From Candidatus Thorarchaeota archaeon (GTDB taxonomy: Archaea; Asgardarchaeota; Thorarchaeia; Thorarchaeales; Thorarchaeaceae), in assembly GCA_019057475.1 (NCBI GenBank), contig DXJO01000004.1, positions 1-64,000 of the forward strand: a stretch of 64,000 bases of DNA, read 5' to 3'. Position numbers and translations under genes: made by a program. Numbering within the stretch: position 1 is the first letter of the stretch; every line of letters begins with the position of its first letter. Below the pieces are notes generated by a model, which saw nothing but the letters and a program-made list of their open reading frames with translations, was not told the DNA's origin and did not search any database. Below are positions 12,960 to 18,599 of the stretch, piece after piece.

Positions 12960-13042
12960 GCTCTCGAGCTGAGCATACGGAATCAAGCTCTGCAGCAGAA
13001 ACTATCTTATCACGCCCGTTGTCATTCTCTACTTGATTCCAC

Positions 13043-14194
13043 ATGAATGTCATCCGGAAGTCTGGCAAAGGAGTCATTAACAGAATCCGAAAGCCATCAG
13101 TTAACAAGCTGACAGACCGCGACCTTCCGTTCGAGGTTGGCCGGACTTCTCGACAGATTCTCAGAAAGCTGCTAGTTGTTTGCGGCAAGGTGGGTAAGGA
13201 AAACACTGAGCTCTATAAGAACAAGGCACGTGAGATAGGAGCTGACTTCGTTTCTGAAACTGAATCTTCCTGGGTTTCTACACACAAGACAATCAAGCAG
13301 AACTTCGAACCCGACAAACATGCTGGGATTCTGCTTCTAGGCAGCAATAAGCAGTTACCAGCTACGCCACTGACATACCAGGGAGTGTTCGGTTTCACTG
13401 ATTGGTTTCTACAGGACACGACCGGGGATGGAACCCCCGACTCTCCAGTAGGTAGGGTATTCGGTCCGCCTGACACTATCCTGTCTCACTTCGACCCCAT
13501 GATCATTGACAGCGACATAGCTATTCTCTTTGACTCTCAGCCCGATCGTTCAACGCGTCATGTCGAGAGTCTAGTTGACTTGGGCTTTGACGTGGAGATT
13601 CTGAAACGATTCAAACCAGAAGATGCGAAGCTGCTTGGAGTTACCGAGTTCATTTTACAATTCTCCGATGGCGTCTTTACTTCCCGCATTCACGGCACAC
13701 CTGAGAAATGGGTATCTCATAACTCTGTGATATTGAGCGCTCAGCAAGTATCGACCATTAAATTCCAGGGATATCCTGTAGTCTACTCGGAGGCGTGTAG
13801 TACTGCGCAAGAGGGTCCCCTGCTCAAAGCTTTCCTGAAACAATGTGCGTGCTATATAGGAGCAACGCTGGACACGATGAATAATACTGAGCCCTTTGAG
13901 AACTGGATGGACTGTGCTTTTAGCGACGGCTGGAAGTATGGTTTTCTTGACCTTCTGGACACACATGATCTCATTGGACAGGTCAAGACACAAGTGGACC
14001 GTGGATTGCACGAGCATCTAGATGCGAAATACAAACGCGAGATAGACAACATCAGGAACGGCAAGTCCAGTGAGCTAGAATCCAGTCAGGCTGTTTCAAC
14101 CGTAGAATGGGTGCTATTTGGCAATCCACTGAGACGTACCACCGTGGGTCCACACGCTGATTTCACGCCGGGCACCATTGTTGTGGATACCTGA
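13043..14194 (+). CDS. gingipain-like (clan CD, C25-type) cysteine peptidase
   Basis: A 383-residue protein that I read as a caspase-fold peptidase. GILLLGSNKQLPA (about 95-107) and TTGDGTPDSPVGRV (126-139) match the gingipain core, where a VGD-x-x-x-IP strand is followed by a D-x-DG-x-PD-x-x-VGR segment. The clan CD dyad is then placed as expected: SRIHGTPEKW with His217 after a beta strand, and VVYSEACST with Cys252 after the next strand. YIGAT (271-275) and LFGNPLRR (358-365) match the family's end. Unlike secreted gingipains it has no signal peptide or propeptide, suggesting a cytosolic enzyme. Substrate unknown. Confidence 0.65.
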   Translation: MNVIRKSGKGVINRIRKPSVNKLTDRDLPFEVGRTSRQILRKLLVVCGKVGKENTELYKNKAREIGADFVSETESSWVSTHKTIKQNFEPDKHAGILLLGSNKQLPATPLTYQGVFGFTDWFLQDTTGDGTPDSPVGRVFGPPDTILSHFDPMIIDSDIAILFDSQPDRSTRHVESLVDLGFDVEILKRFKPEDAKLLGVTEFILQFSDGVFTSRIHGTPEKWVSHNSVILSAQQVSTIKFQGYPVVYSEACSTAQEGPLLKAFLKQCACYIGATLDTMNNTEPFENWMDCAFSDGWKYGFLDLLDTHDLIGQVKTQVDRGLHEHLDAKYKREIDNIRNGKSSELESSQAVSTVEWVLFGNPLRRTTVGPHADFTPGTIVVDT

Positions 14195-17305: not shown

Positions 17306-18112
17306 TCAGAATCCCATGCTGGTTAGGATTACAACTGCCGCGTTATTAAAGCCATGCGCAACAGTGGGACCGAGGATTGAGTATTTCCTCTTCTGTGCAA
17401 GATATCCCAAGAAGATACCAAGCATGAATCTAACGGGAAGTCCTATGAGATCCAAATGAACTGTTGCGAAGATGAAAGACGTAATGACTAGGGTCCAAAA
17501 CCGGTAATTCTTGTTCTTTGATCTGAAGTATATCTCCATTCTGCGCTGAAGGAAGCCTCTGAATAATAGCTCCTCAGAGAATCCAACGACTACAAACATC
17601 ACGACAACCCAGGCCACCAATTCCATTGGGTCTGACGCGAGGAACATATCCCCGGAACCATCGTCAGGGATACCAACTGTCGTGTTGATTATGTATGTAA
17701 CGATGAAGTTCAGTCCTAACATAACCCCGCCAACGAGAAGTCCCAATAATACGTCGATAACTGGGGAATCTGACTTAATCCCGATGTCTCCTAGGGGCAT
17801 GCTCCTTCTCCTTGCATCAAAGATTGGCGGCACGATGAAACCTAGCGATGCGATACTGAGTATCAAGAAAGTCCATGGGGCGAAGTAGATCGCAAAGGTG
17901 ACGAGGTCAATTGCAATAAGCCCTGCTGCAACCAGGAAAATCGCCATTACGAACGTGATTGCTATCACCAGGGCGAAACCAGCACCTGTGAGAAGCAGAA
18001 CACGGAATAGCCTATTCCCATCTACTTCTCGTTCTACTAGTGCCCCGGGTACGAAAATGTCGATACCTCGGTATTCACCTATCTCATAGATATCTGGGTC
18101 AGTGATAGCCAA
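17306..18112 (-). CDS. CPBP-family intramembrane metalloprotease
   Basis: A 268-residue protein with about eight hydrophobic segments and the CPBP (Rce1/Abi) catalytic motifs: GFSEELLFRGFLQR with Glu180, Glu181 and Arg185, FATVHLD with His219, and VAHGFNNA with His253 and Asn256/257. These make an intact intramembrane zinc site. The start is TTG at 18112 with AGAGGT upstream. Family roles include CAAX-type processing and bacteriocin immunity; the substrate here is unknown. A second CPBP protein is at 34946. Confidence 0.85.
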   Translation of the reverse strand: MAITDPDIYEIGEYRGIDIFVPGALVEREVDGNRLFRVLLLTGAGFALVIAITFVMAIFLVAAGLIAIDLVTFAIYFAPWTFLILSIASLGFIVPPIFDARRRSMPLGDIGIKSDSPVIDVLLGLLVGGVMLGLNFIVTYIINTTVGIPDDGSGDMFLASDPMELVAWVVVMFVVVGFSEELLFRGFLQRRMEIYFRSKNKNYRFWTLVITSFIFATVHLDLIGLPVRFMLGIFLGYLAQKRKYSILGPTVAHGFNNAAVVILTSMGF

Positions 18113-18200: not shown

Positions 18201-18599
18201 CTAAAGAAGCGGCGCTATCTTCTCACTTGCTGTCCTAGCGGCATACACAAGAAGTCCGGTCTTGACATTCTTGGAAGCAGCAAGTACCAGAATGGCCTTC
18301 TCACCAGCGCTCCTCATGATAATCAATCCCTTTTCATTAGTCATCAACACTTCTTCTAGAATCCCTTGGTCCATCCTCTCAGCCGCTAAGTCTGCCACTC
18401 CCAGAATCGATGCTGCCATAGCTGCAATTTCAGCTTCCTCCAAGCCTGCCGGCAGTGCTGATGCGATAGGCAAACCCTCTTTCGATAGGAGTATTGCTGC
18501 CTTGATTCCTGCAGCGGTCTGTGTAGCCTCTTCCATAATCTCCTTGATTTTCCCTTGAATCTGTTCGAAGTCCATATCGAACATGGCGGCCACACTCAC
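18201..18599 (-). CDS. roadblock/LC7-domain protein
   Basis: A 132-residue single roadblock/LC7 domain. Signs are the N-terminal helix (MDFEQIQGKIKEIMEE), GIKAAILLSKEGLPIAS, the central helix EEAEIAAMAASILGVADLAAE and a final strand-helix ILVLAASKNVKTGLLV. Such proteins bind and regulate Ras-like or MglA-type GTPases and are numerous in Asgard archaea. No GTPase gene is in this window, so the partner is elsewhere. It may be read with the CPBP gene 88 bp downstream. A TATA-like TTTTATAC lies about 15-25 bp upstream on the minus strand. Confidence 0.85.
   Translation of the reverse strand: MSVAAMFDMDFEQIQGKIKEIMEEATQTAAGIKAAILLSKEGLPIASALPAGLEEAEIAAMAASILGVADLAAERMDQGILEEVLMTNEKGLIIMRSAGEKAILVLAASKNVKTGLLVYAARTASEKIAPLL

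Follow-up and report, generated by a model that had tools for sequence, protein, structure and literature searches.

A predicted intracellular cysteine peptidase of the gingipain family (C25) in Thorarchaeota

Gingipains are secreted enzymes that cut at Arg or Lys and serve in digestion or virulence, and archaeal C25 genes are normally taken to encode extracellular protein degraders. A signal-less C25-like gene in the Asgard archaea, a lineage closely related to eukaryotes, raises the question of whether intracellular regulated proteolysis by caspase-fold enzymes evolved in this group outside the caspase/metacaspase family. The gene lies in the window, the whole stretch of 64,000 nucleotides analysed here, which belongs to a 3.34-Mb Candidatus Thorarchaeota genome. 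Its product, a single protein of 383 aa with a candidate catalytic dyad and candidate S1 residues, is a defined target for that question. The reading preferred here, at a probability of about 0.6, is an intracellular C25 cysteine peptidase of narrow specificity, in which activity, specificity and substrate are all predicted. The features on which the argument draws are collected in table 1.

Table 1. Features of the C25-like gene. Positions are those of the window; residue numbers are those of the predicted protein.
Feature	Residues	Position	Strand	Basis
Intracellular C25-like (gingipain-family) cysteine peptidase gene (predicted)	383 aa	13043..14194	+	ATG start, homology and conservation
Flexible basic N-terminal tail (MNxIxK...INxIxK)	1-30	13043..13132	+	predicted disordered
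N-terminal subdomain	31-150	13133..13492	+	strand order as in gingipain subdomain A / NSD
C25 D-x-x-PE/PD-x-x-VGR core, DTTGDGTPDSPVGR	125-138	13415..13456	+	profile alignment
DSQPDRS, start of helix alpha1	164-170	13532..13552	+	family alignment; PMC4626109
SDG, end of predicted core strand 203-207	208-210	13664..13672	+	model and alignment
HGTPEKW, candidate catalytic His217	217-223	13691..13711	+	HG-x4-W spacing as in gingipain R
EAC, candidate catalytic Cys252	250-252	13790..13798	+	conservation and profile alignment
NN...W..C...DG.K subfamily signature, after fifth core strand	280-298	13880..13936	+	alignment
LFGNP, counterpart of LFGDP ending canonical C25 domains	358-362	14114..14128	+	alignment

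Membership of peptidase family C25

A preliminary description of the locus had recognized His217 in SRIHG, Cys252 in SEACS and a final LFGNP in the open reading frame, and the translation bears out all of these positions. The longer core motif that it gave, D-x-DG-x-PD-x-x-VGR, holds except at its start: DGTPDSPVGR is present as aa 129-138, and the first Asp is absent, the window copy having T127 at a position where 25 of 42 relatives carry Asp.

From the window copy alone the C25 claim is weak, because it scores below threshold against Pfam C25 (E = 0.016; 14.9 bits, below the cut-off of 23) and a PDB sequence search gives no match. The assignment is carried by the relatives, which comprise 29 close homologues, or 42 members when distant homologues are included. 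PF01364 (C25) is matched by 28 of the 29 aligned close members (best E 2.2e-9), and in a Pfam scan of the 29 no second family was hit by two or more of them. Profile-profile comparison of the 42 members with 27 canonical Asgard C25 domains gives a probability of 98.2% and an E value of 4e-14 at roughly 20% identity between the two profiles. Control profiles run with the same program reach 0.1% (reversed C25), 0.9% (C14) and 0.4% (C11). In the alignment H217 falls on H227 and C252 on C259, the invariant catalytic residues of canonical C25, and the VGR cores coincide. A global profile alignment spans nearly the whole domain and lays LFGNP on LFGDP. A plain HMM built from the canonical domains only, with no family member included, recovers all 42 members, with E values that refer to this 42-sequence set; it too pairs H217 with the catalytic His. 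Searched against PDB sequences, the family HMM finds only de novo designs and chance matches. The chain to the solved gingipains is closed by the canonical Asgard C25 set, whose own PDB matches, at 1e-28 to 1e-52, include gingipain R, gingipain K and PorU. Taken together, the profile-profile and HMM matches, the empty controls and this chain identify the 383-aa protein, almost certainly, as a divergent member of family C25, and the gingipain relationship first proposed from motifs is upheld.

Canonical Asgard C25 proteins such as L038 share with the window family the catalytic His and Cys, the D-x-x-PE/PD-x-x-VGR core, the terminal LFGDP/LFGNP and, as predicted, the order of the two subdomains. 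Most of them also have a signal peptide and, at the start of helix alpha1, an acidic residue, and a long N-terminal region and a hydrophobic anchor at the C-terminus are frequent; the window family shows none of these features. Gingipains R and K (MEROPS C25; PDB 1cvr, 4ief, 4rbm) are alike in the clan CD His/Cys pair and the HG-x4-W motif. The window protein differs from them in lacking the 229-residue prodomain, the Ig-like domain and a counterpart of Asp163, and in an apparent insertion before the His. The His-Cys spacing is similar, 33 in RgpB and 35 here.

Predicted fold, catalytic pair and substrate pocket

AF2 models built from 29 and from 42 sequences have a mean pLDDT of 85-87 and a pTM of 0.87-0.88. 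They predict a four-strand N-terminal unit followed by core strands at 159-163, 183-187, 203-206, 246-249, 270-274 and 356-359, an order that fits the two subdomains of gingipain as described (PMC4357240). The catalytic core of the model starts at about aa 31. The tail ahead of it keeps its start position across the Thorarchaeota members, and its dN/dS of 0.3-0.5 shows faster evolution than in the core. A short pseudo-repeat seems to lie within the tail at aa 1-19 (13043-13100), where NVIRK ... INRIRK is kept in the Thorarchaeota members.

Conservation of the candidate pair, proposed at the outset as a check on the motifs, is nearly complete. Both residues are present in all 29 close homologues; with the distant ones included, His217 is found in 41 of 42 sequences and Cys252 in 42 of 42, and HG-x4-W is kept in 41. 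The further statement that each block follows a hydrophobic strand is accurate for Cys252, which directly follows predicted strand 246-249, and does not hold in the AF2 models for His217, where SDGVFTSRI (208-216) intervenes. The predicted core strand there ends at 206-207, about 7-10 residues ahead of His217, in the part of the model that is least certain. S208 and G210 are invariant in the 42 sequences and D209 is present in 41. Residues 211-216 are not strand-like: their mean hydropathy is 0.29 against 2.03 for 203-207, and pLDDT is below 50 in part. To judge from the models, SDG may occupy the usual site of the catalytic His. The sequence profiles align SDG differently, with the INxG that precedes the canonical strand. 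Two accounts fit: a longer loop that displaces H217, or mis-threading of the AF2 model at 208-216.

The most serious rival reading takes its footing from this region. It holds that the protein has the C25 fold without ordinary peptidase activity, as a pseudoenzyme, a binding protein or another hydrolase, with Asp209 at the place of the catalytic His and His217 conserved for some other reason. Both AF2 models lend it weight by setting the strand at 203-206 and so SDG at the usual His-Gly position, as do the poor strand character and low confidence of 211-216. It also gains from one distant homologue (L072:788-1942), in which Arg replaces His217 (DKVRGNAKEW) and the Cys is kept; this sequence is possibly a natural pseudoenzyme or an assembly error. 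The rival has to contend, however, with the near-invariance of His217 and Cys252, with an HG-x4-W spacing as in gingipain R and with two profile methods that both place H217 on the catalytic His, and it is considered unlikely. Catalytic competence is the probable state of the protein on this evidence.

The substrate pocket appears to be unlike that of gingipain. At the start of helix alpha1, gingipain R Asp163 and caspase-3 Arg64 hold equivalent places (PMC4626109). Arg169 of the window protein stands where gingipain R has its Arg-selecting Asp163, and thus at the place of the Asp-selecting Arg64 of caspase-3. Position 169 is Arg in 40 of the 42 members, Lys in one and Asp in one; D164 is kept in 41. 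The alignment of the 42 members contains no conserved acid at this S1-selector site; canonical Asgard C25 sequences have acidic residues at the start of the helix. The position two residues before the catalytic Cys, which contacts P1 in caspase-3 and MALT1 (PMC4626109), is E250 in 41 of 42. The lone sequence with Asp169 appears in the alignment to be L071; position 250 of that sequence is Gln, a single case. The aa 280-298 signature, placed by analogy with RgpB, would fall in the region in which Gln282 and Trp284 of gingipain R lie (PMC4357240) and is probably a wall of the substrate pocket. As the S1 site differs from that of gingipain, cleavage after Arg or Lys is not to be assumed. The altered S1 site is the testable surprise of the locus.

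A bolder account of these residues can be given, in which a C25 protease moved to the Asgard cytosol and had its S1 charge reversed (Asp163 to Arg169). It would have become a dedicated processing protease with a non-gingipain, possibly acidic, P1 preference, and regulated proteolysis of the caspase kind would then have arisen from C25, independently of C14. In a linked version, the catalytic His would have shifted by some seven residues within its loop, leaving Asp209 in the old place. This account is doubtful.

A metal site may also be retained. D129 and D133 lie nine and five residues ahead of the VGR Arg, the same spacing as Asp103 and Glu107 of RgpB, which are reported Ca2+ site residues (PMC4357240). 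The match makes Ca2+ dependence plausible in the Thorarchaeota members; two distant members lack both residues.

Distribution, gene context and cellular location

Of 228 genomes of the phylum searched by profile, 44 carry the gene: 39 of the 47 in the window's own family, and five spread over three further Asgard families. Among named records, the closest homologues come exclusively from Candidatus Thorarchaeota MAGs. Both well-completed genomes of the sister genus g11 (96% and 99%) are without the gene, so its loss is tolerated and it is not universally essential. It occurs in single copy, the only genome with two matches (G003) having a gene split between contigs. Within the genus dN/dS is 0.15-0.19, which marks a functional, vertically kept gene. 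A mobile element was rejected as an explanation, a search of viral contigs and plasmids having found no relatives. A defence system was likewise rejected; the one weak PADLOC match (E 0.0014) is to a 36-residue helical stretch.

Gene order around the peptidase is conserved across the family. The neighbours encode a DUF2085 protein, a DegT aminotransferase, a DUF5518 protein, an HhH-GPD glycosylase, an ABC-2 permease, an Rce1-like protease and a Roadblock protein. The set is mixed and contexts differ in the other Asgard families, so that none of these genes was taken as an operon partner; no partner or operon recurs from one Asgard family to another, and the neighbours form no evident pathway. 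In the window only 83 bases (12960-13042) separate the aminotransferase from the peptidase. At this site many relatives (e.g. L040, L043, L046-L048, L052, L053, L055) carry a further gene, of about 215-225 codons. Read by eye, it looks like a HAD-type phosphatase on the opposite strand, and it was dropped as a candidate partner. The Rce1-like CAAX protease gene (17306-18112) adjoins the strongly conserved Roadblock/LC7 gene (18201-18599; dN/dS 0.05), and both are syntenic with the peptidase family-wide. In both genomes of f25, another Asgard family, the homologue lies upstream of the rRNA dimethylase gene ksgA, by 14 bp (L070:6892-8001) and 3 bp (L072:788-1942). An Mtq2/HemK-like methyltransferase gene follows ksgA, and Pus10 is nearby in L070. 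This is a translation-related, housekeeping setting. The f15 homologue (L069:7042-8163) overlaps an upstream gene for a 193-aa protein, itself overlapping a zinc-ribbon/TPR gene, possibly as an operon.

Such a neighbourhood offers little to the idea that the protein is a processing enzyme or transpeptidase like PorU, the C25 sortase of the Por secretion system (PDB 6za2). PorU shares the C25 catalytic domain, the canonical C25 profile matches it, and the narrow conservation of the window family would be compatible with one dedicated substrate. PorU is, however, a secretion-system protein with a chain of 1156 residues, against a lone 383-aa core here. The conserved neighbourhood contains neither secretion machinery nor a gene with a sorting signal, the protein itself has no export signals, and the idea is improbable.

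The claim that the protein has neither signal nor membrane helix has stood up well. The maximal 15-residue Kyte-Doolittle mean of the window protein is 0.70 in the first 60 aa and 1.14 overall; it does not exceed 1.42 in any of the 42 members, and none comes near an N-terminal signal. Where the ends are complete, most canonical Asgard C25 proteins have N-terminal hydrophobic segments at 2.3-2.9, often with a C-terminal one as well. The hydropathy scan showed no signal peptide or membrane helix in any of the 42 members, and no member has a prodomain. The window genome also carries a signal-bearing canonical C25, a 2671-aa open frame (L038). These sequence properties make it very likely that the 383-aa protein is intracellular. 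Export by an unrecognized route, for which the basic N-terminal tail and the exported, digestive canonical C25 proteins of sediment archaea (PMC6752024, PMC6461988) might be cited, is a shade less probable even than the transpeptidase, given a conserved start codon position, a hydrophobic segment in 0 of 42 members and the lack of the C-terminal anchor that most canonical C25 proteins have. Intracellular C25 is not unique to the window family: some Thermoprofundales (MBG-D) C25 peptidases are tabulated as intracellular, as archaeal entries without predicted secretion that appear in the table only, with no follow-up of the family there (PMC6461988). In another Asgard family, L078 is a C25 protein of 613 aa with a long N-terminal region and no recognizable signal or anchor.

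The intracellular peptidase preferred here would work as follows. The enzyme would be a C25 endopeptidase pared down to a catalytic core of two subdomains, with the chemistry usual in clan CD: His217 would serve as the general base and Cys252 as the nucleophile that attacks the peptide bond. Since signal peptide, prodomain and C-terminal anchor are all lacking, action would be in the cytosol. Single copy, purifying selection and a pocket unlike that of gingipain make a few specific cuts the most likely mode, that is, limited and regulated proteolysis of a few cellular proteins rather than digestion of peptides. The basic tail at the N-terminus, or Ca2+ at D129/D133, might regulate the enzyme. 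A conserved, single-copy C25 core without a signal, probably in the Asgard cytosol, is a warning that not every C25 gene encodes an exported digestive enzyme.

Relation to other caspase-fold enzymes

Structural comparison, proposed in the preliminary description as a check on the fold, gave a divided answer. The AF2 strand order agrees with gingipain, and Foldseek against the PDB places no gingipain among the 50 matches listed. The top matches of the two AF2 models are Rossmann-like proteins (TM about 0.2, rmsd 12-19 A) and were judged spurious. The only coherent match among those listed is the Caenorhabditis elegans separase-securin complex 5mz6 (probability 1.00, rmsd 4.4 A over 258 columns, E 3.1e-3). 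This match supports the clan fold of the model, not a separase relationship. Separase (C50) is alike in its clan CD fold; the window protein has no sequence-profile relation to it and no helical-repeat region. An independent clan CD branch nearer to separase or the caspases than to C25, for which the 5mz6 match is the argument, is highly improbable when that match, at its modest E value, reflects a fold common to the whole clan, the C14 and C11 profiles are empty where C25 is strongly matched, and a Pfam search of the 29 members at E<=10 finds neither C14 nor separase PF03568.

The suggested bearing on the origin of eukaryotic caspases and separase, beyond shared clan membership, fares poorly in the light of the same profiles, which find C25 and not C14 or C11. 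Three Asgard PF03568 matches (L142, L143, L144) were rejected as separases; by eye they are clan CD domains of the CHAT type, and two have TPR-like N-termini. C14 caspase-type domains (L104-L123), none of them in the window's own genome, occur in 15 of the 59 genomes searched around the window.
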